64,000 nt of DNA from Christiangramia salexigens (GTDB lineage: Bacteria > Bacteroidota > Bacteroidia > Flavobacteriales > Flavobacteriaceae): NCBI RefSeq assembly GCF_001889005.1, contig NZ_CP018153.1, forward strand, positions 1,522,501 to 1,586,500, written 5' to 3'. Below the pieces are notes generated by a model, which was given only the letters and a program-made list of their open reading frames with translations, ran no database searches and was not told where the DNA came from. The position numbers were made by a program, and so were the translations under genes. Shown here one piece after another: positions 13,467 to 64,000 of this stretch. Each line of letters begins with the position of its first letter. Within the stretch, counting starts at the first letter, position 1.

Positions 13467-13588
13467 CTTTCAATTTTTGGCGAAGATATAAGATTTGCAA
13501 GAAATAAAATACCTGTGAAGCCTGAAGTCTGTTCCCAAAAAAGGGATAACGATCAACCTATAATGCAACCTGTCCTCTGGACGGGAAG

Positions 13589-13618
13589 TTGCAGAAAATC
13601 AATAATTAGGTATATTTG
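13589..13618 (+). promoter_or_regulatory. Promoter of the 50-residue gene
   Basis: TTG at 13589-13591 and TATATTTG at 13611-13618 are separated by exactly 19 bases, a textbook flavobacterial promoter. Initiation would be near 13624, about 12 bases before the ATG at 13636. Confidence 0.7.
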
Positions 13619-13635
13619 ACTGAAACCTATTCGAA

Positions 13636-14306: not shown

Positions 14307-14307
14307 A

Positions 14308-14961: not shown

Positions 14962-15108
14962 TTTTTAAAATTAAAGGTATTAAACTATCGTAATTTTATT
15001 GCATTTACAACCACAAGTTAGGAATATCGCAAGGTTTTACCCTATTCACAGAATAATACTAAACATTAATTTTCAAAGAATTAAGCCAAAATATTTCTTC
15101 ATAAAACC

Positions 15109-15138
15109 TTGTTAAAAATACTGGAAAGCCTACTTTTG
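15109..15138 (+). promoter_or_regulatory. Promoter of the Oar-like receptor gene
   Basis: TTG (15109-15111) and TACTTTTG (15131-15138) are separated by 19 bases, matching the Bacteroidota consensus. Initiation near 15145 would leave a leader of about 35 bases. Confidence 0.7.
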
Positions 15139-15178
15139 CAAAAATTTTTAAAGTTTTATAACTCTACACACAAACAAC

Positions 15179-18100: not shown

Positions 18101-18391
18101 AGAGGTCGCTGGGATGTTAAGATCCTTCAGGACTACAACTTCAAAGTTGGTGATGGTGAGAAGACCAATACTATACAGTTTAGTTTAGATATCCTTAATT
18201 TCGGAAACCTTCTGAACTCTGACTGGGGTGTAATTGAGATCCCGGTTAATGACCAGCCAGTTGGTGTAAGTGTTGGAGATGACAATACTCCTGTTTACAC
18301 ATTTGGTACAGATCAAAACAGAACATTTGCCTATGACTTCAGTCTTGAATCAAGATGGCAGGCACAGGTAGGATTGCGTTATATTTTCTAA
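15179..18391 (+). CDS. Oar-like TonB-dependent outer-membrane receptor
   Basis: A 1070-residue outer-membrane protein. Residues 1-20 are a signal peptide ending SQAQ. Residues about 26-110 form a carboxypeptidase-regulatory-like beta-sandwich (TAEITGEVFYEEGTPLPGAN ... VSYVGF). A plug follows around 125-235 (SLDGSIFNNPFG, DAIDQIQVSTAPYDVTQAGF), and the rest is a beta-barrel ending in the aromatic terminus GLRYIF. The extended N-terminal domain plus GASVNAVTKSGTNNVEGTVY is characteristic of Oar-type receptors, not SusC. No SusD-like lipoprotein follows, so it is not a typical polysaccharide locus. The cargo is unknown; one characterised Oar exports a signalling protein. The gene has its own promoter and terminator. 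Confidence 0.92.
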   Translation: MKKLLLFLSVAFLISGVSQAQVTTAEITGEVFYEEGTPLPGANITAVHTPTGTKYGAVTNFDGAFNLLNLRVGGPYKITVSYVGFKTSVLDGIELNLGQTYNVDIEMVSDATQLDAVTITAKRNQIINSDRTGAETNVGRKELKTLPTISRSAADFYRLEPTASSNGSFGGRNDQFNNFSLDGSIFNNPFGLDAATPGGQTNAQPISLDAIDQIQVSTAPYDVTQAGFTGASVNAVTKSGTNNVEGTVYGFYRNEDMTGDKVAGNDIIVPDLKQAQYGFSIGAPIIKDKLFVFANFERDDREDLGSNFIANRPGLTGANVSRVSAEDLDYVSNQLSSLGYETGPYEGYTHITESTKGILKLDWNINQNHRMAFIYNFMDASRDLPANPEAIGRRGPDLTTLQFRNSGYTINNKIDSWLVELNSNFGNNISNKFQAGYTFFDDSRDPFSAPAPAISIQQNGVRYIVAGHEPFSINNRLEQHVYQITNNLNLVAGNHTFTFGGSFERFDFDNSFNLGAYTYFNQNGGVGVFAPDFASVRTNPNNPGTSFQEAVENGLIGEALNNAQDVFENRNANDSWALAETNVGQLAFYAQDRWKINKDFTFTYGLRVDKPLYFDTQDKIRENIDRLAGGTFPDGDYQPGITYYDENGNDVKLNSLDLPSKKLLWSPRLGFNWDVMGDNRLQLRGGTGIFTGRLPFVWIGNQVANPAFYFYQTTAPDFQFPQVWRNSLGADYRFENGIVATTDLIYTRDINAQMVRNYGLSTPSGRLNGVDNRPVYLNSDRAVNEFGGVTNAYVFTNTDVGHSFNWSLKLAKNFERDFYASIAYNYLKAEDASSLDAEISSDAYDRNPALGNVNAAVSTASRYGDKHRIVGQLNKQFTYGNNDQWSTSIGAFYEYAQGGRFSYTYSGDINNDGSVLNDLIYIPTQSELQQYTFSGDAAEQEAQRQAFEAFIQQDDYLNENRGDYAEKYGILSPWRGRWDVKILQDYNFKVGDGEKTNTIQFSLDILNFGNLLNSDWGVIEIPVNDQPVGVSVGDDNTPVYTFGTDQNRTFAYDFSLESRWQAQVGLRYIF

Positions 18392-18414
18392 GCAACCCCA
18401 AACCTGATTAATAC

Positions 18415-18445
18415 AAAAACAGCCTCTAAAAGAGGCTGTTTTTTT
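18415..18445 (+). terminator. Rho-independent terminator of the Oar-like receptor gene
   Basis: The stem pairs CAGCCTCT with AGAGGCTG, extended by A/T pairs, and is followed by a run of seven T. It lies 24 bases after the stop codon. Confidence 0.88.
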
Positions 18446-18463
18446 GCGCTTTTCAGAAAGAAA

Positions 18464-19111
18464 TCAGCTCATAGATTCAGCCTTTTCTTCCAGTTTACTT
18501 ACCTGAGTGGGATATGGTTTTTCCTTTAAGGTTTTGGCAAGGTGAACCATGTTATGAGCCATTAGCAACATCATATTATTGGTGAATTCATGCTTATCAG
18601 CATTCGCCTCTATATAACTCGGACCAGGACCCGCTTCCCCAACATAATAGCAAAAAGCGTTTACAGGGATCGTAAAGCCTTGCTCAGACAGATCGAATGC
18701 AATACTTGAAATAGCCTTTTTAGCTCCGTCCTCATTTCCATCTACCATTACTCCGGCTACCTTATTATAGGTAGGAAACTGTCCATTCTCATCATTTGCC
18801 TCTTCCATGATACCATCCATTCTCTCGTTGATAAGTTTAGCTACAGCACTACGATCACCACGCCAAATTGGTGTTGCAATAATGAGCATATCCGCTGCTT
18901 TGATCTTTTTCAAAATTTCAGGCCATTCGTCTCCTTCTCCCTCATCTGAACTATTCCCGAATTTCACATCATAGTCTACCACCCTTAATTTTTCGGTCTC
19001 CACGTCAAGTTCTTTAAACACTTTAGCTGCATTATCAATGAAAGCATCTGTATTAGAAGTTTCAGGCGACTTTTTTAAAGTACAGTTCAGAAATAAAGCT
19101 TTTAGTTTCAT
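18464..19111 (-). CDS. Flavodoxin-family NAD(P)H-dependent oxidoreductase
   Basis: A 215-residue flavodoxin-fold protein. The N-terminal beta strand and phosphate-binding loop are LKALFLNCTLKKSPETSNT, where the loop anchors FMN. IIATPIWRGDRSAVAKLINERMDG near residue 75-100 is the second flavin-contacting segment of the NADPH-dependent FMN reductase/WrbA-like group. It probably reduces small electron acceptors, but the substrate is unknown. It is monocistronic and convergent with the receptor gene. Confidence 0.8.
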   Translation of the reverse strand: MKLKALFLNCTLKKSPETSNTDAFIDNAAKVFKELDVETEKLRVVDYDVKFGNSSDEGEGDEWPEILKKIKAADMLIIATPIWRGDRSAVAKLINERMDGIMEEANDENGQFPTYNKVAGVMVDGNEDGAKKAISSIAFDLSEQGFTIPVNAFCYYVGEAGPGPSYIEANADKHEFTNNMMLLMAHNMVHLAKTLKEKPYPTQVSKLEEKAESMS

Positions 19112-19338
19112 ATATGAATTTTTAACTGGTTAATAACTCTTACAACTTAAAGAAAAAACACTTCGAATGCAGTTAAGGGCGGGTTAAACAGACTTAATAA
19201 TAAGTTATAAACCAGAATAAAGCATTTATTTTAGTCACTAATTTTCAATATGTTACAATACTTTATTAAGCAAAACCGTTAATAATTACTGAATATATGT
19301 CGTAAATTGAAATAGATTTAACCACTAACTCCAGGATT

Positions 19339-19680
19339 ATGAAATATGAAAAGCTTGGCGAATTTATTTATATGCCAAAACATATTGGAAAACCGCTACA
19401 GGGTCGGGATAACGTGAAATTCAATTATTACTTGTCCAGTCAGGTGAATGGTAAAAAAATTGACCTGGATATTACCACTAAATTATTCCATGAAGATGAG
19501 ATCTATATTAGAAAAGCCTGTTTTCGGGTAAGTATTGGCGAAATTGAAGCCTGTGTTAAAGACAACCTTATTGATCACATGCGAAGTCTGGGAATGGATG
19601 AGGAGAATATCCCGAAAAGCTTAAACTGCAGAGATATCATTAGCCATACTGAGAATTACTGGGCTAAAAATGCTTATTGA
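19339..19680 (+). CDS. Hypothetical protein (113 residues)
   Basis: I do not recognise this protein. It is soluble, mixed alpha/beta, with charged residues throughout and no signal peptide. It contains VNGKKIDLDITTKLFHEDEIYIRKACFRV-like beta strands in the middle and a helical end (NLIDHMRSLGMDEENIPKSL ... HTENYWAKNAY). It stands alone, with 227 bases of AT-rich spacer upstream that show no clear promoter. The 224 bases between its stop and the tRNA hold only the terminator described next. Confidence 0.6.
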   Translation: MKYEKLGEFIYMPKHIGKPLQGRDNVKFNYYLSSQVNGKKIDLDITTKLFHEDEIYIRKACFRVSIGEIEACVKDNLIDHMRSLGMDEENIPKSLNCRDIISHTENYWAKNAY

Positions 19681-19865
19681 AGCCTTTTATACCTAACAAT
19701 AAAATTGTCCCGAAATCCTTTTGAGGACATACCGTTTTAAATAGCTCTAGCTTTATTTCCTATTTACTCTAATCGGAAAAATAGAAAGTCACCGCGCCTA
19801 AAAGGCTTGTATAGCTATAATACTTTTTAAATTTTTAGCAAGATCAAACCTGGCAGAAAATAAAA

Positions 19866-19892
19866 AAGTCCCCATATTAATATGGAGACTTT
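19866..19892. terminator. Terminator hairpin between tRNA-Arg and the hypothetical gene
   Basis: A long stem (AGTC-C-CCATATT with AATATGG-A-GACT, 19867-19890, one mismatch) has T runs on both strands outside it. It lies 12 bases past the 3' end of tRNA-Arg on the minus strand and most likely ends that transcript; it could work in both directions. Confidence 0.75.
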
Positions 19893-19904
19893 CTCTTTTT
19901 TTAG

Positions 19905-19978
19905 TGACCTCGCCAGGATTCAAACCTGGAACCTTCTGAGCCGTAATCAGATGCGCTATTCAGTTGCGCCACGAGGCC
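19905..19978 (-). tRNA. tRNA-Arg (anticodon ACG)
   Basis: The minus strand folds as a complete tRNA of 74 nt. The acceptor stem pairs GGCCTCG with CGAGGTC (one G-U) with discriminator A. The D arm contains GCGC/GCGC, the anticodon stem TCTGA/TCAGA encloses the loop TTACGGC with anticodon ACG at 19942-19944, and the T arm contains CCAGG-TTTGAAT-CCTGG. CCA is not encoded. The ACG wobble base is normally converted to inosine to read CGU/CGC/CGA. Confidence 0.95.
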
Positions 19979-20071
19979 TTTATTTGATTAGCTTTGTATC
20001 TCTCAAAGCGGGTGCAAATATAAATTATATTTAGAAAACTAAAAACCCTTATTCAAAAAAATTAAATAAAA

Positions 20072-49427: not shown

Positions 49428-49435
49428 TAACTTTG
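49428..49435 (+). promoter_or_regulatory. -7-type box that decides the T9SS plug-protein start
   Basis: TAACTTTG matches TAnnTTTG, and its last three bases (TTG, 49433-49435) are the first in-frame start of the following gene. Because that TTG lies in the promoter box, the real start is likely the ATG at 49451. No -33 TTG is seen at the usual spacing. Confidence 0.4.
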
Positions 49436-49450
49436 TTTATTATTTTCCAT

Positions 49451-50704
49451 ATGAAAGACTATTTATACATTTTATGTCTACTGCTTTCTTTTCATATCTG
49501 CATGGCCCAGACTCTTGAAGAAACACCCCCTCCAAACTATATAAGAACAGTTATATTAAGCAGTGGTTCACTGGAAAATACCGGCAACCCCATAATTAGA
49601 CTTGGAGAAAGATTAAATCTAAGTTTTGACGATATCATTGGTGATGAAGCAGACTATTATTACACTATACAGCATTATAATTATGACTGGACTCCAAGCA
49701 AACTCTCAAAGAATGAATACCTGAATGGTTTTGATGATGTAAGGATCTCGAACTACCAAAATGCCTATAATACACTTCAGCCCTATACACATTACGAATT
49801 AACGATCCCAAACACCAATGTTCAAGGCCTAAAGGTTTCAGGCAATTATGTGATCAATGTTTTTAACGCTAACCGGGAGCTTGTGTTTTCAAGAAAATTC
49901 ATGGTTTACGAACCCATTGCCCAGATCGAAGCCGAAGTTAAAAGGTCCCGAGATCTTAAATTTATTGATGAACGCCAGGTTGTCAATTTTTCGATCAATT
50001 CTCCAGAATTGTTACTAAAAAATCCGGGTGAAAATGTAAAAGTTAGTCTCATCCAGAATGGCAACCTTAAGTCTGCCATCACCAACATTAAACCACAATT
50101 TACAATTGGCAACGAATTAATTTACCGCTATAACAACGAAACTTCTTTCTGGGGCGGAAATGAATATTTTCAATTTGATAATAAAGACTTAAGAGCAACC
50201 ACAGCAGATATTTCCAGTGTAGAATTAAACAAACTTTATCACCATTTTCTATTTCCAGATTTTACAAGGAGTGATAATCCCTACACATATAACCCAGATA
50301 TTAACGGGGGATTTGTTGTACGGAATCTATTGGGTCAAAACTCCAACATTGAAGCCGAATATGTCTGGGTGCATTTCAAGCTTAAAAATTTTGATGATAT
50401 TGGAAATGGAAAGATACATTTATATGGTGGCTTCAATAATTTCGAGATCAATGAGAGCACCTCACTAAAATACAATGAGGAATCAGGCTATTATGAAACC
50501 GCCAGATTATTCAAGCAAGGTTATTACAACTATAAATACGTTCTGGTAAATAATGAAGGTGAATTACTGGATGGCTTTATAAGCGGAAATTTTGATGAGA
50601 CCGAAAATGCATACAGTATTCTTGTCTATTATCGTAATCCTGGTGCGAGATACGACCGTTTAATAGGGGCGGGATATACCAATTCAAGAAATATAAGAAA
50701 TTAA
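49451..50704 (+). CDS. Type IX secretion system plug protein (DUF5103)
   Basis: The 417-residue exported protein has a signal peptide ending ICMAQ (residues 1-19), then PPPNYIRTVILSSGSLENTGNPIIRLGERLNLSFDD-like beta strands, YYTIQHYNYDWTPSKLSKNEYLNGFDD, a long beta-rich region, and the C-terminal NAYSILVYYRNPGARYDRLIG. This pattern is the DUF5103 family. From published T9SS work as I recall it, this family is the plug that closes the outer-membrane translocon SprA from the periplasmic side. The ATG at 49451 gives a normal signal peptide. The gene is followed by DUF3667 with a 15-base gap. Confidence 0.9.
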   Translation: MKDYLYILCLLLSFHICMAQTLEETPPPNYIRTVILSSGSLENTGNPIIRLGERLNLSFDDIIGDEADYYYTIQHYNYDWTPSKLSKNEYLNGFDDVRISNYQNAYNTLQPYTHYELTIPNTNVQGLKVSGNYVINVFNANRELVFSRKFMVYEPIAQIEAEVKRSRDLKFIDERQVVNFSINSPELLLKNPGENVKVSLIQNGNLKSAITNIKPQFTIGNELIYRYNNETSFWGGNEYFQFDNKDLRATTADISSVELNKLYHHFLFPDFTRSDNPYTYNPDINGGFVVRNLLGQNSNIEAEYVWVHFKLKNFDDIGNGKIHLYGGFNNFEINESTSLKYNEESGYYETARLFKQGYYNYKYVLVNNEGELLDGFISGNFDETENAYSILVYYRNPGARYDRLIGAGYTNSRNIRN

Positions 50705-50719: not shown

Positions 50720-51808
50720 TTGAGTAAAGACCGTTCAATTTTAAGATATCGAGGAGAACGCTGTCTAAACTGTGATCTTCCAATAGAAAGAAGCGACAAG
50801 TACTGTCCTAATTGTGGACAATTGAATAGTACAAAAAAGTTAAGCTTCGATGACTTTTTTTCCGAATTTTTCTCAGGTGTTTTCGCCTATGATTCTCGCT
50901 TTCAACGAACATTAAGAGTACTTCTGTTTAAGCCTGGAAAAATTTCTAAAGATTATATTGAAGGTAAGCGCATGCGGTATGCGAATCCGTTTAGATTCTA
51001 TCTGAGCGCTTCTATACTCTTCTTTTTGATTTTTGGTTCCGTGATCAATCTGGACGAGGAGTTTACCGAATCCGGAGCACCTTCCGCCGTTGAAATTCAG
51101 GATCAGACCTCCATTACTGTCGCGAATAATAAACCAGCCATCAATGATAGCATTGACTTCCACCCGGAATTAATAGCTAAAAGTATCGAGGAAGAAAAAG
51201 ATTCATTGAATTACCGGAATTATTTAATTACTAAAGCAGACCTTGATTCATTGAACCGGCTGGAATTAAATATTAAAAAGTTCTGGTTATTTTATGAATT
51301 TCAGGAGGAAACTAAGGTTAGGAGTTCTGAAAAAGCGATGGAGTGTATGGACCTGCCAAAATCAAAGTTTAATCTTTGGTTTTATAAAAAAGCCGTAGAC
51401 GCTGGAACCTTTAAAGAAAACCCTAAATTATTTATCGAATATTTCATTGGCAAATTACCTTTTATAATATTCTTTTACCTGCCGGTATTTGCATTTTTCA
51501 TCTACTTACTTTACCTGAGACGGCGTTTTAGTTACATGGAGCATTTAATTTTTGCCTTCCATGTTCAAACCATGTTCTTTATACTTTATGCTATTGCCTT
51601 TTTAATTAAATCCTTCACAGATGATATTTGGGCTATAAGCATGGCAAACCTTATTTTTCTGATCTATTTATACAAAGGAATGCGCAGTTTCTATGGCCAG
51701 GGACGTGTTAAAACCATTTTAAAATTCCTGATTTTAAATCTAATATTCTTACTTTTAGCTGTGATTGCAGCAATAATTGCATTGCTGGTTTCCTTTTCGA
51801 TATATTAA
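50720..51808 (+). CDS. DUF3667 membrane protein with zinc ribbon
   Basis: A 362-residue protein with an N-terminal zinc ribbon (two CxxC pairs in ERCLNCDLPIERSDKYCPNC, about residues 13-34). The DUF3667 core is FFSGVFAYDSRFQRTLRVLL and GKISKDYIEGKRMRYANPFRFYLSASILFF. A polar extracytoplasmic part spans about 120-230, and three to four more membrane helices occupy about 235-362. Function is unknown. It starts with TTG at 50720, because the zinc ribbon begins 14 residues later and the next Met is at residue 83. Confidence 0.85.
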   Translation: MSKDRSILRYRGERCLNCDLPIERSDKYCPNCGQLNSTKKLSFDDFFSEFFSGVFAYDSRFQRTLRVLLFKPGKISKDYIEGKRMRYANPFRFYLSASILFFLIFGSVINLDEEFTESGAPSAVEIQDQTSITVANNKPAINDSIDFHPELIAKSIEEEKDSLNYRNYLITKADLDSLNRLELNIKKFWLFYEFQEETKVRSSEKAMECMDLPKSKFNLWFYKKAVDAGTFKENPKLFIEYFIGKLPFIIFFYLPVFAFFIYLLYLRRRFSYMEHLIFAFHVQTMFFILYAIAFLIKSFTDDIWAISMANLIFLIYLYKGMRSFYGQGRVKTILKFLILNLIFLLLAVIAAIIALLVSFSIY

Positions 51809-51810: not shown

Positions 51811-52197
51811 ATGATCCAACAAGTTACCAGAGGAATAAAGATTTCAGTCGAAACGCATTTCGAAGGCATGTTCTATAAGAACTATAAGAAGCACTTTGCT
51901 TTTGGATATCAGATCACCATCGAGAATCAAAGTAACGACTCAGTTCAGCTTAAATCCAGATTCTGGAAAATTAAAGATGCTCTTAACAGGACCGAAACAG
52001 TTTCAGGAGAAGGTGTCATTGGTAAGAAACCGGTTATAAAGCCGGGGGAGAGACATACCTATCAAAGTGGTTGCTTACTTACTGGGCCTTTTGGAGCCAT
52101 GAGCGGACATTATAATATGATCAATTTCACATCTACCAGAAATTTTCATGTTGAAATCCCCTCTTTTCAGCTTAGTGCACCTTATGCATTAAATTGA
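51811..52197 (+). CDS. apaG: ApaG-like protein
   Basis: A 128-residue ApaG/FBA-domain protein with an immunoglobulin-like beta sandwich. It contains TRGIKISVETHF, FAFGYQITIENQSNDSVQLKSRFWKI, and GEGVIGKKPVIKPGERHTYQSGCLLTGPFGAMSGHY. ApaG was linked to Co2+ resistance and Mg2+ efflux in Salmonella, but its direct activity is not known. It starts two bases after DUF3667, and its end overlaps the converging NRDE gene by 16 bases. Confidence 0.95.
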   Translation: MIQQVTRGIKISVETHFEGMFYKNYKKHFAFGYQITIENQSNDSVQLKSRFWKIKDALNRTETVSGEGVIGKKPVIKPGERHTYQSGCLLTGPFGAMSGHYNMINFTSTRNFHVEIPSFQLSAPYALN

Positions 52198-52901
52198 ATA
52201 AACTCATCAGTCACTTCATTTTGAAGTAAATTCTTATGCCAGAACTTTAATCCTGTTTTTGAATTAAACACCTGAGTAATACTCTTTGTTTTTAAAAATC
52301 CGCGATCTATAATCATATCTTTATCCTTATCCCCTTCCCCGGCATTATGATGGAAATTTAATAGTGACTCCGGATTTAATCCATTTGTATTCTTTAGTTC
52401 ATCAAACCATTTTCGTCTTAGAGCCCGAGTTTCGCGAGGGTATAATGGAGACGACGACCAGATATATTCTTTATACTGTAGTTGAGTCACTTTTATATCT
52501 TCAGCATTCCAGATCAATTCATAAAAAACCATAGTATTATTCCAGTCTACAATAATCATTGTAAAAGGCTCTATCCCTGAAAGTGGATAATCTTCAAATA
52601 ATTTGCTTAGATCTTTTTCAGCAAGAAAATCCTTCACCACCACTCCTCTGCTTTTACGGTATGTTGCCTGGCGAACATGCGGCTCTTCGGCGCCATTCAT
52701 AAGACACACGCAGCGATCTATTTCGCTAACTCCAATCCATGTCCCTCCGGCTTGCTGGTCTTTTGGAAAATAGAGCTTTTTAGACTTATAGATTTCAGTT
52801 GACGGATTCATAGTTTGCCTGCTCACTGCCTCATCTCTGTTAGAGGTCAAAATAAATCCGTTCGGCGCATCAGGGTGTGGCACGAGACTAATAGTACACA
52901 T
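52182..52901 (-). CDS. NRDE-family (TANGO2-like) protein
   Basis: The 239-residue protein begins with MCTISLVPHPDAPNGFILTSNRDEAVSR, the signature of the NRDE family, with the catalytic-type Cys2 and an N-R-D-E box at residues 21-24. Bacterial members show an N-terminal nucleophile fold with a Cys as potential nucleophile; the human homologue is TANGO2. The substrate is not known. YIWSSSPLYP and a C-terminal helix are typical. It is divergent from pruA. Confidence 0.9.
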   Translation of the reverse strand: MCTISLVPHPDAPNGFILTSNRDEAVSRQTMNPSTEIYKSKKLYFPKDQQAGGTWIGVSEIDRCVCLMNGAEEPHVRQATYRKSRGVVVKDFLAEKDLSKLFEDYPLSGIEPFTMIIVDWNNTMVFYELIWNAEDIKVTQLQYKEYIWSSSPLYPRETRALRRKWFDELKNTNGLNPESLLNFHHNAGEGDKDKDMIIDRGFLKTKSITQVFNSKTGLKFWHKNLLQNEVTDEFIQFNA

Positions 52902-53040: not shown

Positions 53041-54669
53041 ATGGGAAAAGGATTTTTTCACGTTCCTGTAGCAGTTAACGAACCAGTAAAAAGTTACGCT
53101 CCAGGAACCCCGGAAAGAGAAGAAGTATTACTTACTTACAAAGACTTATACAATTCCAAAATGGATGTTCCTCTGTATATAGGTTCTGAAGAAATCAAAA
53201 CTGGGGACACTGAAACCATGCACCCTCCACACGATCACAAACATGATCTTGGTGTATATCATAAAGCCAAAAAGAAACATATCCAAAAAGCAATAGATAC
53301 TGCACTAGAGGCCAGAACTCGTTGGGCAGATCTAGAATGGGAACAAAGAGCAGCTGTATTCTTAAAAGCAGCTGATCTTATTGCAGGTAAATACCGTTCA
53401 AGAATCAATGCTGCGACAATGATTGGGCAGTCTAAGAATATTTATCAGGCCGAGATTGATTCAGCTTGTGAGTTATGCGACTTCCTTAGATTCAATGTTG
53501 AGTATATGTCGCAGATTTATGATGAGCAGCCAGAATCATCTGATGGAGCATGGAACAGAGTTGAATACAGACCTTTAGAAGGTTTTGTTTACGCAATTAC
53601 ACCTTTCAACTTTACTGCAATTGCTGGTAACCTACCATCAAGTGCAGCCTTAATGGGTAACGTTGCGATCTGGAAGCCAAGTGATAGTCAGGTATTTTCT
53701 GCTCAGGTTATCATGGAAGTATTTAAGGAAGCTGGAATGCCAGATGGTGTTATCAATATGGTAATGGGAGATCCTGAAATGATCACCGATACTATTTTGG
53801 CAAGCCCGGATTTTGCAGGTATCCACTTTACAGGAAGTACTACGGTATTTAAAAATATCTGGCAAAAAATTGGTAATAACATTCATAATTATAAAACCTA
53901 TCCAAGAATAGTTGGAGAAACAGGTGGTAAAGATTTTATTGTTGCACACCCATCTTCTAATGCAGAGCAGGTAGCTACTGCAATCTCTCGTGGAGCTTTT
54001 GAATTCCAGGGACAAAAGTGTAGTGCGGCTTCCAGAGTTTATTTACCGGAAAGCCTTTGGCCAAGAATTAAAGAATTGGTTGTAGAAGATGTACAATCCT
54101 TCAAAATGGGCTCTCCAGAAGATATGAGCAACTTTATCACTGCCGTTATTCACGAAGGTTCTTTTGATAAACTTGCCAAATATATAGACCAGGCGAAAAA
54201 AGATAAGAATGCTGAGATCGTAGTAGGTGGTAACTATGACAAATCCAAAGGTTACTTTGTTGAACCAACAGTGATCCTTACTACAGATCCTCACTATACT
54301 ACTATGGAAACCGAATTATTCGGCCCTGTAGTTACTATATATGTATATAAAGATGAAGACTGGGAAAAAACATTGAAGCTTGTTGACGAGACTAGCATCT
54401 ATGGTTTAACCGGAGCAGTATTCTCTGGCGACCGCTATGAATTAAGCAAGGCAACTAAAGCTCTTCAAAATTCTGCCGGTAACTTCTATCTTAACGATAA
54501 GCCAACCGGAGCTGTTGTAGGACAACAACCATTTGGTGGAGCTAGAGCCAGCGGTACTAATGACAAAGCAGGATCTAAACTTAATCTGATGAGATGGATC
54601 TCTCCAAGATTAATTAAAGAGACCTATACCGCAGCAACCGATTACAAATATCCTTTTATGGGCGAGTAA
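53041..54669 (+). CDS. pruA: 1-pyrroline-5-carboxylate (glutamate semialdehyde) dehydrogenase
   Basis: PruA oxidises glutamate gamma-semialdehyde to glutamate with NAD+, the second step of proline catabolism. The 542-residue protein is of the long single-domain type. The Rossmann segment NVAIWKPSDSQVFSA binds NAD, IVGETGGKDFIVAH carries the catalytic Glu (about residue 296), and FEFQGQKCSAASRVY carries the catalytic Cys (about 330). PFGGARASGTNDKAG is the C-terminal family motif. No putA/proline dehydrogenase is adjacent. A strong terminator follows. Confidence 0.96.
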   Translation: MGKGFFHVPVAVNEPVKSYAPGTPEREEVLLTYKDLYNSKMDVPLYIGSEEIKTGDTETMHPPHDHKHDLGVYHKAKKKHIQKAIDTALEARTRWADLEWEQRAAVFLKAADLIAGKYRSRINAATMIGQSKNIYQAEIDSACELCDFLRFNVEYMSQIYDEQPESSDGAWNRVEYRPLEGFVYAITPFNFTAIAGNLPSSAALMGNVAIWKPSDSQVFSAQVIMEVFKEAGMPDGVINMVMGDPEMITDTILASPDFAGIHFTGSTTVFKNIWQKIGNNIHNYKTYPRIVGETGGKDFIVAHPSSNAEQVATAISRGAFEFQGQKCSAASRVYLPESLWPRIKELVVEDVQSFKMGSPEDMSNFITAVIHEGSFDKLAKYIDQAKKDKNAEIVVGGNYDKSKGYFVEPTVILTTDPHYTTMETELFGPVVTIYVYKDEDWEKTLKLVDETSIYGLTGAVFSGDRYELSKATKALQNSAGNFYLNDKPTGAVVGQQPFGGARASGTNDKAGSKLNLMRWISPRLIKETYTAATDYKYPFMGE

Positions 54670-54951: not shown

Positions 54952-57900
54952 ATGGGAAAAAAATTACTTTTTCTAAACTTACTGATCTTTATATTTCCCG
55001 CATTCTTATGGGGGCAGTGTCCTGCATCTATAGGCATCACCTCAGATGAAGGCAATACTATTTGTGAAGATACGCCTGTAACTTTTACCGCTTCCCTACA
55101 AGATAACTCTACCTATAATTATGAATGGTATTTAAATGGTTCCCCTCAGGGTATAGATGATTATGCCTATGGACCACTTTCCACTCTTAATGACGGAGAT
55201 CAAATTAAAGTGGTTATCACCAATGCCAGTGGCACGGCATGTAATGTAGAAAGCAGTCTTATAACCATGGTGGTTAATCCTAACAGGACACCTACTGTAA
55301 GCATCAATGCATCAGACAATGATATTTGCATCGGAGATTCTGTCACATTTACGGCCTCAAATACCAATGGCGGATCTAATCCAACTTATGCCTGGTTTAT
55401 TGGAACCAGCACAACTGCCGAACAAACCGGTTCTTCAAATACTTTTATAACCACAGCACTCAATCCTTCCGAAAACACAGTAAGAGTAGAATTGACTACC
55501 AGTATTAGTTGTTATACTGAAGAAACTGTAGATGCCACCAGTGAAAGCATTAATGTTAAGGAAGATTCCAGCATTACACTGGACACTTCAGATGATATTA
55601 GTGTATGCATAGATACTGCAATTCCAAACCCTATCGAATATACCATAGGAGGTGGAGCAACCGGAGCTACCGTTACCGGCCTGCCAAATGGAGTAAATGG
55701 CAGTTATGATTCCGGCACCGGAAAATATATCATTTCAGGAACACCAGATACGGCAGGAGTATTTTCTTTTACCGTTAGCACTACCGGACCTTGTAATCAA
55801 TCTGATGCCAATGGAACTATAACAGTAGATCCTGATGCAACTTTAACATTAGACTCAGGTTCGAATGAACAAACAGTATGTTTGAATGAGAATATTGACT
55901 CAATAAATTATACGATTGGAGGTACAGGCACTAATGCTACCATTACATGGTCTCCATCAGACCCTGGACTAACAACTAATTATAATACCGGAAATTATAG
56001 CATTAGTGGTGCTTCACCTACAGAAGGTACTTTCAACTATATATTAACCGCTACTGGGGACTGTGGCGATTCCCAGCAATTAAGTGGTACTATTATTATA
56101 CTAGCAGATGCAAGTTTGACACTAAACTCCGGTTCCGAAATTCAAACGGTCTGCATAGCTGAAGATATCACTCCGATAGTTTATAACATTGGCGGATCTG
56201 GTGACGATGTAAACCTTACCTGGGGAACCACAGATCCCGGATTGACCATTACCAATAATATTGCAAGTGACGGAACTTATACTATCGAGGGTTCAAGCAA
56301 CTCCGTTGGAACTTTTGATTATACCATAACTGCTACAGGAAATTGTGCAGATTCTGCAACCTCCTCTGGAAGCATTACAATCCAGCCAGATACCTCTTTA
56401 AACCCAACAACAGCAACAGACCAGACTGTTTGTATTAATTCAGCTTTATCGGATATCATATTTGATGTAACCGGTGACCCTTCAGATGTTAGCTCAACAG
56501 GTCTACCTCCGGGTGTATTAGAAGATTTTAATCCTGCAACCAATACCTACACAATTTCCGGGACCCCAACAGCAACCGGTAATTTTATCTATGAAGTTAC
56601 TGCAGACGGTTCCTGTATCGATGATACTTTTAATGGAACTATTAGTGTTGCTCCCGATGCAACTTTGGTATTAGATTCAGGCTCCGACAATCAGACAGTT
56701 TGCGAAGGCGAAAATATAACACCAATAGTTTATAACATTGGAGGATCTGGAGATGATGCAAACCTCACCTGGATCACTACTGATCCCGGATTGACCATTA
56801 CCAATAATATTTCAGGTGATGGAACTTATACTATAGAGGGTTCCAGCAACTCCGTAGGAACTTTTGATTATAATATTACAGCTACAGGCGATTGTAAAGA
56901 ATCTGCGACCTTATCAGGAAGTATCACGATCCAGCCAGACACCTCTTTAAATCCTACAACAGCAACAGACCAGACTGTTTGTATTAATTCAGCTTTATCA
57001 GATATCATATTTGATGTAACCGGCGACCCTTCAGATGTTAGCGCAACAGGTCTGCCACCGGGTGTATTAGATGATTTTGATCCTGCAACCAATATCTACA
57101 CAATTTCCGGGACCCCAACAGCAACCGGAGATTTTATCTATGAAGTTACTGCAGACGGAGCTTGCATTGATGACACCTACATAGGAACTATTAGTGTTAA
57201 CCCAGACGCAACTTTATCCTTGAGTTCAGGAGAGGAGAACCAGTCAGTTTGCGAAGGCGAAAATTTAACACCAATAGTTTATAACATTGGAGGATCTGGA
57301 AACGATGTAACACTTTCCTGGGCAACAACAGATCCAGGACTAACAATTACAAATAATATTGCTACCGACGGTACATTTACGATAAGCGGATCCACCAGCA
57401 ATGTCGGAACTTTTGACTATGATATAACAGCAACTGGAATATGTGGAGATTCTTCAACCTCTAGCGGATCAATAGAGATCCTGCAGAACGCCACCTTAAG
57501 TCTTACTACTGCCAATGATAATCAACAGGTTTGCGCTAACACTCCGATTCAAGATATAATTCACGATACTGTAGGAACAGCAAGCGTTATCGACTTACCT
57601 CCGGGAGTTTTAAGCTCGATAAATAATAATCAGCTAAGGATTTACGGTTCTTCCTCTGTGCCTGGAATTTATAATTATACAGTCACTTCAACCGGGTGTG
57701 GCCCAGATGCTGTTAGGACTGGCTCAATTGAAATTTATAGTTTACCTCAGCTTCCTTCCAACGGTGCACCACCGGCAGAAAATCAGATTGATGGTCCCAC
57801 CTCGATATGCCCAACGGTTTCTGGTCTGGTCTATTCTGTTCTTGAAGACCCGAACGTAGTCACCTATAATTGGAGCCTACCATCTGGTTTTAACATTACC

Positions 57901-60900
57901 TCAGGAGATGGCACCCATTCTATTACAGTGGATGCCACATCCACTGCTACAGATGGTAATATTAGCGTTACCGCAGAGAATCCTTGCGGCACTACTCCAT
58001 CGGTGAGTATCGCTGTATCGGCTGCGCCATATGCAGAAGTAATGGCCGGAGCAGATCAAACTGTTTGTGTTGGCACAAGTACGATCACACTTAATGGAGG
58101 AACAGGTGGCGCTGTAGGCTCTCAACATTCTAATTGGGATTGGTCGGATGGAAGTGGAAATACCAATAATTTTCAAAACGAGAGAAGATTAGATACAGAT
58201 TATAATATACCAGAACCAATACGGTCTAATGGAGGATCCATTACTATCACGATCACCTCAACAGATCCGGTAGGAAGCTGTGATGTTGTTAGCGACTCGA
58301 TGATTTTAACGGTTCTTCCTGACCCAACTGCAGACATTAGTGGAAGCACTAACATTTGTTCAGGAGAAAGCAGTCTTATCACTTTTACGGGAACAAATAA
58401 TACCACCCTTACTTATAATATAGATGGTGGCACTAATGAAACTATAGATCTGGACGAAACGGGAACCGCCAGTCTGGACACCGGAATTTTAAATGCTACC
58501 ACGACCTATAATCTGGTAAGCGTTAGATACACCGCAGACCCGGCATGTTCCCAAAACCTTTCCGGAAGTACCACTATCACAGTAGACGAATTAACCACTG
58601 TAGAAGCCGGAGGACCGGATACAATTTGCGAATCAGACTCTCCAACTGCATTAACTTTAGGCGGTGCTTCCATTGGAGGCGGAGCGACTCAGGGTGCCTG
58701 GTCCATAATTTCTGGAGGAGGTACTTTGAGCAGTACTGCCGAAACTTCAAACCCAGATCAGATAACCTATACTCCTGATGCGAATTATAACGGAGAAGTT
58801 ATATTGCGTTTAACCACAAATACGACTGGAACTTGTCCTGCCAATTTTGATGATCGCAGCATTACAATTGATCCTGCTCCTGCATTAGACCCGGGAGAAG
58901 ACATTAATGTTTGCCAGTCCTCCACACCTGATCCTATAACATTAAGCGGGGCTACTTTATCTGGTAGCGCAAATACCGGCGCCTGGTCTATCACATCTGG
59001 TGGAGGAAATTTAAGCTCTAATGCACAAACCGCGAATCCAGAATTAGTCACTTATACTCCTGATGCAGATTATTTTGGTACTGTTACCCTAACACTTACC
59101 ACAGATGCACCCGGAGTCTGCGCTGCGATTAGCGCAACAAGAAACATTATCGTAGAGGAAGCGCCCATAGCAGATGCCGGTGCTGACGAAGCTGTATGCC
59201 AATCTGCGACTCCTGGCGCTATCACCTTAAGTGATGCAAGTATTAGCGGAGGCGCTACTGAAGGTTCCTGGACTATACAAAGCGGCTCCGGAATATTAAG
59301 CAATACCGCTCCCACTTCAAATCCGGAGTTAGTGACATTTACTCCCGACCCGGATTTTACAGGTACCGTAGAACTAAAGCTTACCACGAATGCGCCAACA
59401 TCCTGTAATAGCGTAGATGATATCAAAATAATTACTGTAGACCCAGCACCCATTGTGGAAGCCGGTAACAACATTAATGCTTGTCAATCTTCAACTCCAT
59501 CTCCCATCACATTGACAGAAGCCGTCTTAAGTGGTGGCGCAAATACTGCTGCATGGTCTATTTCTTCGGGAACTGGAAGCCTGAGTTCAACGGCTCAAAC
59601 AGCAAATCCGGAAACGATCACCTTTACTCCTGTACCCGATAATCTTCAGGATGTAGTTCTTGTTTTAACATCAGATGCACCAGGAGCCTGTGGTGAAGTT
59701 TCAGATACTCTTACCATCATCTTCGAAGAAGCTCCATTAGTGGAAGCCGGTGATGAAATCATTGTATGTCAATCAGCAACTCCATCAGCAATAAACCTTA
59801 CAGGGGCAAGTATATCGGGTGGAGCAACAGAAGCGACATGGTCCATAACTTCCGGATCTGGAACTTTAAGTGACACAGGAGTTACAAATACCCCTGAGGC
59901 AGTACAGTTCACTCCCGATGCAAATTATTTTGGCAGTATTACATTAAGCCTTACTACAGATGCTTCTGCAAACTGTTCTCCTGTTATAGACACAAGAGTC
60001 ATCACAATAGAAGAAGCTCCAATCGTAGAAGCGGGGAATGAAATTACCGTTTGTCAATCTGCCAACCCTTCCCCTATAGCTTTATCTGGAGCATATATAA
60101 GTGGCGGTGCCACCACTGCAGCATGGACTATTAGTAGTGGCGCCGGAAGTTTAAGCTCTACGGCACAAACTTCCAATCCGGAAAGTATCACTTATACACC
60201 TGCTGCCAATGAATTCGGCACGATCACTTTAAGTCTTGAAACCGATAATCCAGCCAGCGGAGCATGTGGATCTGCTGCCGATATATTAACCATAAATATT
60301 GAGGAGGCACCCATCGTAGACGCCGGACCTGACCAAAACATTTGCTCGGATGCATCAGCAAGCATTAGTGCAAGCCTGGGTGGTGGAGCAACCGCAGGTA
60401 TCTGGACGAGTTCGGGTTCAGGGAGCTTTGATGATAATCTATCACCTACAGCAATTTATACACCGAGCCAAAACGATATTATTTCCGGAGCAGTTACACT
60501 AACTTTTACAACTCAGAATTCAGCCACGCCATGTCAGGAAGTAAGTGACGACCTGATTTTAAGTATCGATGAAAAAGTTGAAATAACTACGGCGCCCTCG
60601 AGTATTGGTGTTTGTTCCACCCAAACTGCAGAATTAAATGTAGTGGCTACAGGGGACAACTTAACCTATGAATGGTATAAGGTAGACGGAGGAGGTGATA
60701 TCCTGGTAGGCAATAGTTCAGATCTAACAATTAATAATGCCGGTGTAAATGATACTGGTAGTTATTATGTGATTGTAAGTGGCACTTCAGATTGTTCCAG
60801 TAAAACATCAGAACCTGTAGACATTATTGTAGATGAGAATATTATAGTAAATACTCAACCGCAGGATCAGGATCTCTGTGTTGGTGAAAGCATTGATCTT

Positions 60901-63900
60901 AACATAGATGCTCAGGCCAGTGGAGGCACCCCTACTTATCAATGGAGATTTAATGGTTCTCCAATTGATGGTGAGACATCATCTACCTTAACTATAAATA
61001 ATGCTACAACTGCTAATAATGGGAATTATGACGTGATAATATACGGTCCGGCAGGATACAGCTGTGATCTTGGATATTCTGAATCTGCAACCGTCATGGT
61101 CTCTGAACCGCCAACTGTAGATGCGGGCTCAGATATCACAGCCTGTACTACAGATTCCTTTGTTACAATTGGAACAGATGCGGTTATTGCAAACTATTCA
61201 TCTATTGAATGGAGTACTGCTTGCGGAACCGGTGTGTTTGGAGATATTAATTCCCTCACTACTACCTATACTTTTGGTCCCGGTGAAGATGGTGTAGTCA
61301 CCCTTAGTCTTAAATTAATTGGTAATGCCACCTGTTCCGAAGTATCCGACAACATCGATGTTCAAATTATCCCACTGCCAGTTATAAATTCGTTTAGTTA
61401 TTCAGGACCTATATGTGTTTCTAATACAGGGCTGCAATCCCCTACTCTGGATCTTACCAATGCGGTGATCAGCGATGGTTCTTTCAGCTATACAGGAACA
61501 GGGACATTAGACCTTAATACCACAACAGGAGAAATTGATCCTTCAGCCAGCGATCCTGGCTCTTACGATATTAGTTTTACGATTCCCCAGGATGGATATT
61601 GCGCAGAGGTTTCAGAAACTTATACTCTCACTATTTCCGATCTTCCAGATCCTGATTTTAACTATGATGCTACTTCCTATTGCCGCGACACAGAAGATGA
61701 AAGTGCTAATTCAGACCCGGTCCTCACAATTGTTGATGGAGGTGAAGACCATGATAATTTCATTTATACGGGTTCTGGTAGTATTTTATCTTTAGATGCA
61801 GCAACCGGAGCAATAGACCTCTATAATAGCGAGGCAGGAGCATATATTATCACCAGAACTGTAGATTATTCCGGGGCCAGTGAAGATGGTTGCTCCCTGG
61901 TTTCAACAACTTTTGATCTGGAAATTTTTGACAAACCCATTCCGGATTTCAGCTATGCTGCCAATACTTATTGTTCAAATGATGAGGATCCCGCACCGAC
62001 TTTCACCGGCGATCCGGATCTGGCAAGTTTCACTGCGAGCCCGGCCGGCCTTGTAATAGACCCTTCTACCGGAATCGTAGACCTGGACGCCAGCACACCA
62101 AATACTTATACCGTTACCAATACCATTAGTGCATCTAATTCCTGCCCGCAGGTAACCGGTACCTTTGAAATTACGATAACAAAATTACCCGTTGCAGATT
62201 TCTCTTATTCCGGACTTGATGAAAATAATGCCATATGCATCTCTAATCTTCAAAGCTTAATAGAAACTTCCCCTGATTCTGGCGGAACTTATTCCAGTTC
62301 TACTCTTGCAGATTATCTTGACCCCGATTCGGGGACACTTAGCTGGAATATTGATGACCCGATTAGCGGTGATCACACCATCACTTATACTATTCCTGCG
62401 ATAGAAGCCTGCCCTGAAGTTAGCTTTTCCCAAGATATCAGGATAGATGCTATTCCTATTGGAGGAGAATTACTATTCGAAAAAAATAATGAACGTATTT
62501 TCCTAACCTGTGAGGATCCAGTTCCCGGTTATGGCAGCCAGTTAAACCTTTCCGGACAATTAGGTCAGATCGTTGAATGGGAATACAGACCGGCATCTGC
62601 ACCGACATGGACAACCATCGATTCACAGAATGATTATCTCACTGATAATGAAATTGAAGCTGCGGTACCCAATGAAACTACGGCATTCAGAGTCAAGATC
62701 ATTAATGGTGCATGTAATATAGAAACCTATTCTGAAGCAGCTTTGGTTAGTGTGATCCCTGCAGATATAAAACCTCAACCAGTTGAGGTGGATAAAGAAG
62801 TGATCTGTATTGGGGATGAAATTCAACTCAGCTCAACTACTGGTTACAACATAGATGGCGGGAATATTGATGGCGGAATGTTTGACAATGCGGGTATAAA
62901 AAATCATGGCTGGGGATTCACCGATCCAGATGGAAATCTAAATGATTTTGATTCGGCCGCCAATAACGGACGAGCAGATCACTGGCTTAGAATGAATCCG
63001 CATGGCCAAAACCCTAAACCCAATGAAAAAGTATATACTGCTCATTTATATCCAATAGAAGACCAGGCTGAAGGAAATGGTTATATGGTGAATTTTGACA
63101 CCTATGCCGCTCCAGCCGGAAATAAAGGTTTCGCTATAGTCACAGGAGATAACGATTCATTTATGGAAACCCCGGTTTTCTCTTTGAGCGGATTGGATGA
63201 GGCTATTCTAACCTTTGATCAGGCATATAACCTTACTGAAGGTGCTGTGATAAGAGTTGAAATTTCTAATGATGGTGGAGCAAATTACCAATCTGTGCCT
63301 ATTATGCATATTGAAGGAACGGCAACGAGTGGTAATTATGATAACTTCGGAGACTTTACTATAGAAGACCGTCCATTGAACAAAATGGAATTTGATCTTG
63401 GAGCATATATAGGCCAAAGCAATCTCAGAATACGTTTTAATTATATAGGAAGCCTAGATGGCGATGTATGGGCTGTAGATAATATCCAGATCCCTCAGGG
63501 TCCACAAGATGTTGAATTGATATGGTATTATGATGATGATCTTACAGATCCGGATAATGCACTCGAACAGATTGGAGCAGTAAATCAGGAAGTGGTTTCC
63601 TTTGAACCTCGAAAGATAGGCTGGAACGACTTTGAAGTACAGACAAAACTTATTCTTGATAGTAACGGAAATAACTGCCAGAGTATAGACAATTTCGAAA
63701 CTATCAGGGTATTTGCTTTTGACCGGTATACCTCCAACGTAAGCCCGGTAACAGGAAGCTGCGGAAGCACGACGGTTAGATTAAATGCCACTGTCTTTGC
63801 GCAATATCAGAACACAACTATTACATCTTACCCAACCTTAGATGGCTATTATGGGGAATGGGAAATAATTGGCCCTGAGGGTACAGACCCTTCAGATTTC

Positions 63901-64000
63901 ACTCTGACAAAACAAGATCCTTCAATACCGGGTGATGCAATCAACGATCCAAATATCATTTTTGAAGCGCCCAATATTGGTGATTATACATTTACATGGA
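54952..64000 (+). CDS. Giant secreted modular repeat protein, incomplete at the window end
   Basis: A single frame runs without a stop from the ATG at 54952 to the last base, more than 3,016 codons; stops lie in frame just upstream (54934, 54937), so this ATG is the start. Residues 1-22 are a signal peptide (LLFLNLLIFIFPAFLWGQ). Ig-like modules follow (for example YEWYLNGSPQ at about 58). An array of about eight ~91-residue modules spans residues 205-930, then Ig/SprB-like modules, then six exact 95-residue repeats at 1217-1788. Two Ig-like units lie at about 1895-2045, FSY-x-YC modules at about 2145-2500, and a jelly-roll-like segment at about 2735-2850. Modules have paired Cys, many Thr/Ser/Gly/Asp and few Lys. 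It is probably a surface adhesin sent out by the type IX system, whose C-terminal sorting domain would lie beyond the window. Confidence 0.93.
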   Translation, partial: MGKKLLFLNLLIFIFPAFLWGQCPASIGITSDEGNTICEDTPVTFTASLQDNSTYNYEWYLNGSPQGIDDYAYGPLSTLNDGDQIKVVITNASGTACNVESSLITMVVNPNRTPTVSINASDNDICIGDSVTFTASNTNGGSNPTYAWFIGTSTTAEQTGSSNTFITTALNPSENTVRVELTTSISCYTEETVDATSESINVKEDSSITLDTSDDISVCIDTAIPNPIEYTIGGGATGATVTGLPNGVNGSYDSGTGKYIISGTPDTAGVFSFTVSTTGPCNQSDANGTITVDPDATLTLDSGSNEQTVCLNENIDSINYTIGGTGTNATITWSPSDPGLTTNYNTGNYSISGASPTEGTFNYILTATGDCGDSQQLSGTIIILADASLTLNSGSEIQTVCIAEDITPIVYNIGGSGDDVNLTWGTTDPGLTITNNIASDGTYTIEGSSNSVGTFDYTITATGNCADSATSSGSITIQPDTSLNPTTATDQTVCINSALSDIIFDVTGDPSDVSSTGLPPGVLEDFNPATNTYTISGTPTATGNFIYEVTADGSCIDDTFNGTISVAPDATLVLDSGSDNQTVCEGENITPIVYNIGGSGDDANLTWITTDPGLTITNNISGDGTYTIEGSSNSVGTFDYNITATGDCKESATLSGSITIQPDTSLNPTTATDQTVCINSALSDIIFDVTGDPSDVSATGLPPGVLDDFDPATNIYTISGTPTATGDFIYEVTADGACIDDTYIGTISVNPDATLSLSSGEENQSVCEGENLTPIVYNIGGSGNDVTLSWATTDPGLTITNNIATDGTFTISGSTSNVGTFDYDITATGICGDSSTSSGSIEILQNATLSLTTANDNQQVCANTPIQDIIHDTVGTASVIDLPPGVLSSINNNQLRIYGSSSVPGIYNYTVTSTGCGPDAVRTGSIEIYSLPQLPSNGAPPAENQIDGPTSICPTVSGLVYSVLEDPNVVTYNWSLPSGFNITSGDGTHSITVDATSTATDGNISVTAENPCGTTPSVSIAVSAAPYAEVMAGADQTVCVGTSTITLNGGTGGAVGSQHSNWDWSDGSGNTNNFQNERRLDTDYNIPEPIRSNGGSITITITSTDPVGSCDVVSDSMILTVLPDPTADISGSTNICSGESSLITFTGTNNTTLTYNIDGGTNETIDLDETGTASLDTGILNATTTYNLVSVRYTADPACSQNLSGSTTITVDELTTVEAGGPDTICESDSPTALTLGGASIGGGATQGAWSIISGGGTLSSTAETSNPDQITYTPDANYNGEVILRLTTNTTGTCPANFDDRSITIDPAPALDPGEDINVCQSSTPDPITLSGATLSGSANTGAWSITSGGGNLSSNAQTANPELVTYTPDADYFGTVTLTLTTDAPGVCAAISATRNIIVEEAPIADAGADEAVCQSATPGAITLSDASISGGATEGSWTIQSGSGILSNTAPTSNPELVTFTPDPDFTGTVELKLTTNAPTSCNSVDDIKIITVDPAPIVEAGNNINACQSSTPSPITLTEAVLSGGANTAAWSISSGTGSLSSTAQTANPETITFTPVPDNLQDVVLVLTSDAPGACGEVSDTLTIIFEEAPLVEAGDEIIVCQSATPSAINLTGASISGGATEATWSITSGSGTLSDTGVTNTPEAVQFTPDANYFGSITLSLTTDASANCSPVIDTRVITIEEAPIVEAGNEITVCQSANPSPIALSGAYISGGATTAAWTISSGAGSLSSTAQTSNPESITYTPAANEFGTITLSLETDNPASGACGSAADILTINIEEAPIVDAGPDQNICSDASASISASLGGGATAGIWTSSGSGSFDDNLSPTAIYTPSQNDIISGAVTLTFTTQNSATPCQEVSDDLILSIDEKVEITTAPSSIGVCSTQTAELNVVATGDNLTYEWYKVDGGGDILVGNSSDLTINNAGVNDTGSYYVIVSGTSDCSSKTSEPVDIIVDENIIVNTQPQDQDLCVGESIDLNIDAQASGGTPTYQWRFNGSPIDGETSSTLTINNATTANNGNYDVIIYGPAGYSCDLGYSESATVMVSEPPTVDAGSDITACTTDSFVTIGTDAVIANYSSIEWSTACGTGVFGDINSLTTTYTFGPGEDGVVTLSLKLIGNATCSEVSDNIDVQIIPLPVINSFSYSGPICVSNTGLQSPTLDLTNAVISDGSFSYTGTGTLDLNTTTGEIDPSASDPGSYDISFTIPQDGYCAEVSETYTLTISDLPDPDFNYDATSYCRDTEDESANSDPVLTIVDGGEDHDNFIYTGSGSILSLDAATGAIDLYNSEAGAYIITRTVDYSGASEDGCSLVSTTFDLEIFDKPIPDFSYAANTYCSNDEDPAPTFTGDPDLASFTASPAGLVIDPSTGIVDLDASTPNTYTVTNTISASNSCPQVTGTFEITITKLPVADFSYSGLDENNAICISNLQSLIETSPDSGGTYSSSTLADYLDPDSGTLSWNIDDPISGDHTITYTIPAIEACPEVSFSQDIRIDAIPIGGELLFEKNNERIFLTCEDPVPGYGSQLNLSGQLGQIVEWEYRPASAPTWTTIDSQNDYLTDNEIEAAVPNETTAFRVKIINGACNIETYSEAALVSVIPADIKPQPVEVDKEVICIGDEIQLSSTTGYNIDGGNIDGGMFDNAGIKNHGWGFTDPDGNLNDFDSAANNGRADHWLRMNPHGQNPKPNEKVYTAHLYPIEDQAEGNGYMVNFDTYAAPAGNKGFAIVTGDNDSFMETPVFSLSGLDEAILTFDQAYNLTEGAVIRVEISNDGGANYQSVPIMHIEGTATSGNYDNFGDFTIEDRPLNKMEFDLGAYIGQSNLRIRFNYIGSLDGDVWAVDNIQIPQGPQDVELIWYYDDDLTDPDNALEQIGAVNQEVVSFEPRKIGWNDFEVQTKLILDSNGNNCQSIDNFETIRVFAFDRYTSNVSPVTGSCGSTTVRLNATVFAQYQNTTITSYPTLDGYYGEWEIIGPEGTDPSDFTLTKQDPSIPGDAINDPNIIFEAPNIGDYTFTW
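55564..57741 (+). repeat. Array of about eight ~91-residue modules with a 549-bp higher-order repeat
   Basis: Modules begin at 55564, 55834, 56107, 56389, 56656, 56938, 57205 and 57487. From 56107 they alternate 282 and 267 bases, giving an exact 549-base (183-residue) two-module unit repeated from 56107 to 56656 to 57205. Between 56380-56590 and 56929-57139 the copies are almost identical at DNA level, including silent positions. Each module shows a D-x-S/T-L start, a VC or VCI motif and a GT-x-Y-x-I-S/E-G strand. Confidence 0.92.
58600..60315 (+). repeat. Six tandem 95-residue repeats with exact 285-bp spacing
   Basis: The V-E-A-G module start recurs at 58600, 58885, 59170, 59455, 59740 and 60025 (each 285 bases apart) and a partial seventh at 60316 (291 bases). 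Each repeat has VCQSATPSPI-like, SGGATTAAWSI-SSGAGSLSS-like and TYTPDANYFGTVTLTL-like strands and a final Cys before an IEEAP linker. The copies differ at many third positions, so they are older than the 549-bp duplication. Confidence 0.93.

Follow-up and report, generated by a model that had tools for sequence, protein, structure and literature searches.

A giant predicted type IX secretion cargo of Christiangramia salexigens with an immunoglobulin-type stalk that appears to be exchanged between species

At the end of the 64,000 nucleotide (nt) stretch of the Christiangramia salexigens genome analysed here (the window; RefSeq assembly GCF_001889005.1, contig NZ_CP018153.1, positions 1,522,501 to 1,586,500), a forward-strand reading frame of 3016 codons (54952..63999) is still open, which raises the question of whether it belongs to a real protein and, if so, of what kind. 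The original prediction, made from the window alone, was of a giant surface protein of modular build, with export by the type IX secretion system (T9SS). The analysis points to a T9SS-exported giant with a stalk that would have been swapped by recombination inside the gene, on a retained leader and base, a reading to which a probability of about 0.75 is given on the basis of sequence comparison and structural modelling.

The genome (G000) is a single contig of 2,978,889 bp in which the window occupies G000:C1:1522501-1586500, and the frame was followed to a stop at G000:C1:1589343, 2,843 nt beyond the window, giving an intact protein of 3,963 amino acids (aa), here named g1. The only other open reading frame of at least 100 aa within 54952..63999 is antisense and 134 aa long. 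A frame arising by chance or from a sequencing error was ruled out in practice because a 3,451-aa paralogue (g2) is encoded downstream and because one intact orthologue (giant A, 3,286-3,494 aa) directly follows the pruA gene in 19/19 congeneric regions read (20 kb each, from 19 of 23 genomes; G004, G012, G019 and G020 were left out for contig ends or incompleteness). The unclosed frame encodes a real protein, of which the window holds the N-terminal three quarters.

The complete g1 is predicted to consist of a leader, a stalk of ~28 immunoglobulin (Ig)-type domains with cysteine pairs, a LamG domain, a base like that of RemA and RemZ, and a type A sorting domain. The candidate signal peptide was read, by eye only, as MGKKLLFLNLLIFIFPAFLWG/QC, and the stalk cysteines fall into 28 pairs, one per Ig-type domain. 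The several repeat families of the original prediction were recovered as diverged families, as four profiles built from the repeats each matched 10 to 16 stretches in g1 and g2, with overlap between families, and its Ig-like units correspond to Pfam domains of the Ig and PKD types. Big_9 matched 7/7 pairs of type C units at E up to 1, the first pair with 29.5 bits against a cut-off of 23.6. Tandem Repeats Finder detected no tandem array in the DNA, ruling out repeats at that level, and the repetition is confined to the protein. Kinship of the type C units with FimH was also rejected, as the sequence search returned two PDB chains only, at E 0.08-0.09, which was judged to be chance. The predicted jelly-roll-like segment was recovered in part: an InhA-like MAM match was obtained in g2 only and below the cut-off (24.2 vs 26.9 bits, E 2.6e-5), and reached g1 by carry-over. 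A MAM-like jelly roll is likely to lie between the g1 stalk and the LamG domain (concanavalin-like, jellyroll fold), which was found above the base.

Beyond the window, where a type A or B sorting domain had been proposed as the feature to look for, a type A domain (TIGR04183) was found at the g1 C-terminus with 31.2 bits, over the cut-off, in the genome scan. Neither a type B C-terminal domain (CTD; TIGR04131) nor SprB repeats were found in g1 at E up to 0.01 (Pfam, NCBIfam). The modelled base gave a fold match to the RemA/RemZ CTD, in a comparison made by VIA-align only, where an absent match carries no weight. RemZ K1110, named as a PorV-contact lysine in an excerpt of PMC10994853, aligns with g1 K3959, the sole conserved lysine of this kind. 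As G000 also encodes SprA, two PorV proteins and the plug, with 11 type A domains in all, g1 shows three features of type A cargo, namely the sorting domain, the PorV-contact lysine, and a genome that encodes both SprA and PorV. Type IX export had been suggested from the nearby plug gene, which is indeed present (Table 1), but its proximity alone is weak evidence and the sorting domain provides the real support. Judged from its sequence, g1 is probably exported to the cell surface. The gene for the second PorV (369 bits; L069:5556-6734, G000:C1:1773555-1774733) adjoins a gene for a long repeat protein with a C-terminus that resembles, by eye, a T9SS sorting domain, and this PorV is a possible dedicated carrier.

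Stalk and base were compared in 20 canonical copies (the giants of the 19 congeners and g2), and g1 was compared additionally. Across this set the bases share 47-93% identity and the stalks 21-78%, where ~21-30% is the level seen between unlike Ig stalks. Five stalk classes, two of them with a single member (G009 and g1), were obtained at 42-45% identity, and the number depends on the threshold, with three classes at 40%, where the three large ones merge, and seven at 50%. Among the 190 pairs of canonical copies, stalk identity showed no relation to that of pruA (rho -0.14, permutation p 0.93), and base identity showed a weak one (0.32, p 0.04). Stalks were below 40% identical in 15 of the 21 pairs with pruA identity of at least 95%, and at least 50% identical in 9 of the 64 pairs with pruA identity below 85%.

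The genomes G014, G017 and G022 share 98-99% identity in pruA and 92-93% in the base. The G017 stalk is 30% identical to both others, and those of G014 and G022 are 78% identical to each other. DNA identity within this trio drops right after the signal peptide and recovers stepwise at about aa 2000-2300. A second giant encoded next to the first (giant B) is unlike in G014 and G022, which have the giant A stalk in common, and alike in G014 and G017, in which the giant A stalks are unlike, so the two giants vary independently of each other.

No congener has a stalk close to that of g1 (21-33%). The g1 stalk is colinear, at 38-39% identity, with giants of Flavobacterium and other sources, part of which may be similarity from unit to unit in a repetitive stalk. 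Of 238 homologous proteins compared (the best 120 of 237 and the best 120 of 212 matches), 18 were at least 33% identical to g1 in the stalk, and 7 of these had no base match at E 1e-5; 126 were at least 40% identical in the base, and only 5 of these reached 33% in the stalk. It appears from these comparisons that the stalk has been exchanged within the gene between species while the foot was kept.

The length of the stalk is near-fixed. Each of the 20 canonical copies has between 44 and 47 cysteines in its stalk, with long and short gaps in strict alternation, which points to stalks of 22 or 23 domains in the canonical copies and 28 in g1. Different stalk classes share no more than 41% identity despite the constant cysteine count. 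The longest run of the cysteine ladder was 22 in 62 and 23 in 23 of 102 homologues longer than 2,900 aa (119 examined); these counts are lower bounds, as a run breaks at one odd cysteine and g1 itself scores 22 against 28 pairs.

The sortase PorU was not found in G000, where PF01364 gave no match and the best NF033707 score was 19.7 bits against a cut-off of 420, nor in any of the 24 genus genomes (PF01364). An oversight through a weak search was ruled out, as the same profile was positive in 53/80 genomes of the family Flavobacteriaceae (44/67 good ones), which served as the positive control (0/14 in the control genome set), and as there is a gap in synteny. In G037 and G047, a gldJ-like gene and porV flank porU, and at least two further genes come next in the order seen in G000 (cdd and pdhA, by eye); in G000 gldJ and porV are ~370 nt apart with no porU between them (G000:C1:2731339-2734585, L068). 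PorU-negative genomes make up 23/67 of the good Flavobacteriaceae genomes, and SprA was found in 79/80 family genomes. PorQ-range matches were present in 6/6 of the PorU-positive genomes looked at (6 of 53), that in G037 being verified as PorQ (457 bits), and none was found in G000. Type A domains are fewer in good PorU-negative genomes (median 10, range 0-33, n=23) than in positive ones (median 53, range 15 to at least 62, n=44; Mann-Whitney p 1.7e-10, kinship uncorrected).

Because G000 has neither a PorU match nor a PorQ-range match, sortase linkage of g1 to anionic lipopolysaccharide (A-LPS) appears unlikely. PorU and PorZ retain their own CTD on PorV and PorQ, according to an excerpt of PMC10202324. 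Part of PMC5053529 describes a Porphyromonas gingivalis porU mutant in which cargo is mostly periplasmic and the surface-exposed part carries its CTD and no A-LPS, and in a passage of PMC8564354 PorU is said to have no T9SS role in Flavobacterium johnsoniae. We infer from these three sources that g1 may be anchored through an uncleaved CTD bound to PorV. With somewhat less than an even chance, g1 would be held non-covalently in this way and not be linked to lipopolysaccharide, the main alternative to retention on PorV being release into the medium.

Under the explanation proposed here, g1 would enter the periplasm by Sec, where its domains would fold and form disulfides, and SprA with PorV would carry it out. 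The stalk, roughly estimated at ~100 nm (3.5-4 nm per domain), would be a fibre that projects from the cell and serves in adhesion or recognition, and the uncleaved sorting domain on PorV would hold the protein non-covalently. At the locus, the signal peptide and base would stay, and recombination within the gene and between species would replace the stalk that lies between them, with a near-constant number of domains. A wider proposal, which as a whole is doubtful, is that this is a surface-identity locus, in which a stalk cassette of near-fixed length, with 22-23 Ig domains braced by disulfides in the canonical copies, would be recombined between species, and even between genera, onto a conserved foot bound to PorV. 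The T9SS would here have lost its sortase, with the uncleaved CTD as the anchor. Given the constant domain number despite widely diverged sequence, the stalk would be a ruler, and phage, predators or kin recognition would impose diversifying selection on its sequence. If the main explanation is right, two questions meet at one locus: how type A cargo is retained without PorU, which is absent from a third or so of the well-assembled Flavobacteriaceae genomes sampled (23/67), and why marine flavobacteria maintain a giant fibre that is swapped in sequence and nearly constant in domain number. For annotation, stalk and base should be compared separately, as the same base bears unlike stalks and like stalks occur on unlike bases.

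A number of points weigh against this interpretation. By hmmscan, the g1 sorting domain falls below the cut-offs of both NCBIfam (22.9 vs 23) and Pfam (20.6 vs 27). In G009 and G018 the left border of the exchanged segment is the same, but identity recovers late and in patches. The base is also mosaic, and with 47-93% identity that follows pruA weakly its constancy appears relative only; pruA itself is a single marker gene. A PorQ-range match was present in 2 of the 19 PorU-negative genomes looked at (19 of 27). The P. gingivalis porU mutant speaks partly against easy export without PorU, and the absence of PorU may change little, because PorU is said to be without a role in the F. johnsoniae T9SS. 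Another protease could also cut the sorting domain, or the protein could be released.

This last possibility, in which an unrecognised protease takes over the function of the lost PorU and cuts g1 as a type A cargo, which then either leaves the cell or becomes attached at its surface, is quite conceivable. PorU-negative genomes are common in the family, 22 of the 23 good ones keep at least one type A domain, and type A domains can lead to release (excerpts of PMC10202324 and PMC12618676). However, no candidate protease was seen in a search limited to PF01364 and NF033707, and only ~370 nt remain at the porU place in G000. It is less likely, and in our view rather improbable, that g1 acts like RemA in gliding, as an adhesin that the gliding machinery would carry along the cell. 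The homology of its base to RemA and RemZ, the presence of gldJ in G000 and the LamG lectin-type domain above the base are consistent with such a role. However, RemA is described as a mobile lectin, its lectin is of the rhamnose-binding (Gal_Lectin) type, and Gal_Lectin was not among the Pfam families found in g1 (E up to 0.01). In addition, 24/24 genomes encode stand-alone proteins of ~600 aa that contain part of the base, so the base alone does not imply gliding.

Two further explanations concern the origin of the stalks and of g1. The stalk classes could be old paralogues sorted by differential loss, and G000, with two giants bearing unlike stalks side by side, illustrates that paralogues can coexist; yet loss of whole paralogues would alter the base too, whereas in the trio described above the base and pruA are nearly alike and the stalk is 30% identical in 2/3 pairs, and the 7/18 proteins with a stalk at least 33% identical to that of g1 and no base match at E 1e-5 also argue for exchanged cassettes, making differential loss very improbable. 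It is also unlikely that g1, as the extra copy, is a transient duplicate without a role. The absence of two such frames of >3,000 aa from every other one of the 24 genus genomes (some assemblies being incomplete) and a 303-aa piece between the two giants, in which a separate leader precedes the 252 C-terminal residues of the base, would fit a passing duplication. However, the g1 frame is unbroken across its 3,963 codons, the sorting-domain lysine and a cysteine ladder are retained, and the g1 base is 62% identical to that of g2, so g1 is not a fresh duplicate.

The neighbours of g1 within the window are listed in Table 1. Downstream of g1, on the same strand, are the gene for the 303-aa protein (G000:C1:1589725-1590636; L006:326-1237), the corresponding base portion of which is 52% identical to g1, then g2, then a 2,360-aa giant, g3, with repeats of the SprB/HYR/LapB type (SprB repeats PF13573). 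A gene like that for the 303-aa protein was not seen beside giants in other genus genomes. A C-terminal region of ~970 residues, the base, is common to g1, g2 and g3 (g1 vs g3 39%), and a relative of it was found in 24/24 genomes of the genus (Christiangramia/Gramella), though G019 (73% complete) and G020 (67%) have only a contig-edge piece or a stand-alone 600-aa relative and no giant was seen there. A g3-like giant B comes next after giant A in 18/19 regions, and is split into two frames in G005 (L042 (G005:C4) 13613-14776 and 14943-20000, reverse-complemented locus). In G008 its place is taken by a 2,345-aa antisense frame without similarity to the reference set (L045 (G008:C1) 12961-19998, reverse-complemented). 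As no second frame of >3,000 aa with the giant base was found in the other 23 genus genomes, g1 is an extra, longer copy of the genus giant. The base tree places g1 as sister to g2 and G003 (100/100), with G013 next (90/93), whereas the pruA genes nearest to that of G000 are those of G006 and G008 (91%) and G002 (88%). This disagreement indicates that the giant base, or alternatively pruA, has moved relative to the other.

The stand-alone protein of ~600 aa (452 in G012; G000:C1:599983-601527 in G000) is present once per genus genome and resembles the part of the base at about residues 403-961 of the query (973 aa). A fourth giant (3,711 aa, type A domain at 40.5 bits), missed by the search with the shared base, is encoded on the minus strand ~18 kb downstream of g3 (G000:C1:1626782-1637917, L038:3383-14518). 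Near the plug gene, the frames 50720-51808 (+) and 52182-52901 (-) had no NCBIfam match at E 1e-5, and a relative of the latter lies upstream of pruA in 19/19 congeneric regions.

Table 1. Positions in the window of g1, its parts and neighbouring genes
Feature	Position	Strand	Basis
T9SS plug gene	49433..50704	+	NF052315, 501 bits; ~4 kb from the giant
pruA	53041..54669	+	profile match; upstream neighbour of the giant in 19/19 congeneric regions read
Giant g1, first 3,016 of 3,963 codons	54952..64000	+	open reading frame listing, frame extended downstream
Candidate Sec signal peptide	54952..55014	+	by eye; left border of putative stalk exchange in congeners just downstream
Stalk, ~28 Ig-type domains, one cysteine pair each	55021..62751	+	C38 to C2588, C2091 excluded
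Repeat type A/B, 8 tandem units, aa 205-919	55564..57708	+	repeat profiles
PKD_6 domain, aa 940-1022	57769..58017	+	76.6 bits, cut-off 25
Repeat type C, 7 tandem units, aa 1216-1873, bacterial Ig (Big_9)	58597..60570	+	repeat profiles, Pfam
Ig_7 and Ig_3 / I-set domains, aa 1883-2035	60598..61056	+	Pfam
Repeat type D, 4 units, aa 2145-2491	61384..62424	+	repeat profiles
Jelly-roll-like (InhA-like MAM) segment, ~aa 2733-2846	63148..63489	+	transferred from g2 match; g1/g2 cysteine register

Giant T9SS adhesins are already known, and g1 is not a new system. Neither stalk exchange nor PorU loss in these bacteria was met in the titles and abstract openings covered (for one search 20 of 661), though the absence of PorU may well be published. 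RemA and RemZ of F. johnsoniae, which are type A proteins carried by PorV, share with g1 the homologous base (RemA 1074-1436, RemZ 688-1112) and the type A sorting domain with its conserved PorV-contact lysine. However, g1 has about three times their length, including an Ig stalk of 28 domains and a LamG domain, and F. johnsoniae has PorU (Fjoh_1556, in an excerpt of PMC5445135), for which G000 has no match. SprB, the giant gliding adhesin with a type B CTD, is likewise a giant repetitive T9SS surface protein, and g3 beside g1 has SprB repeats, but the g1 domain is of type A and g1 has no SprB repeat match. The A-LPS-anchored type A cargo of P. gingivalis shares the type A domain and the SprA/Sov and PorV route, and differs in that G000 has no PorU and no PorQ-range match. 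LamG/Ig T9SS giants of Flavobacterium (such as P0132, Flavobacterium sp. RSP29) have a stalk colinear with that of g1 (39%) and a base 40% identical; they belong to another genus, and the g1 base is nearer to its congeners (52-63%), whereas the g1 stalk is not (21-33%). What is new here is an apparently exchangeable stalk of near-constant domain number on a RemA-like foot, without a sortase, and a pruA-giant arrangement found in all 19 congeneric regions read.
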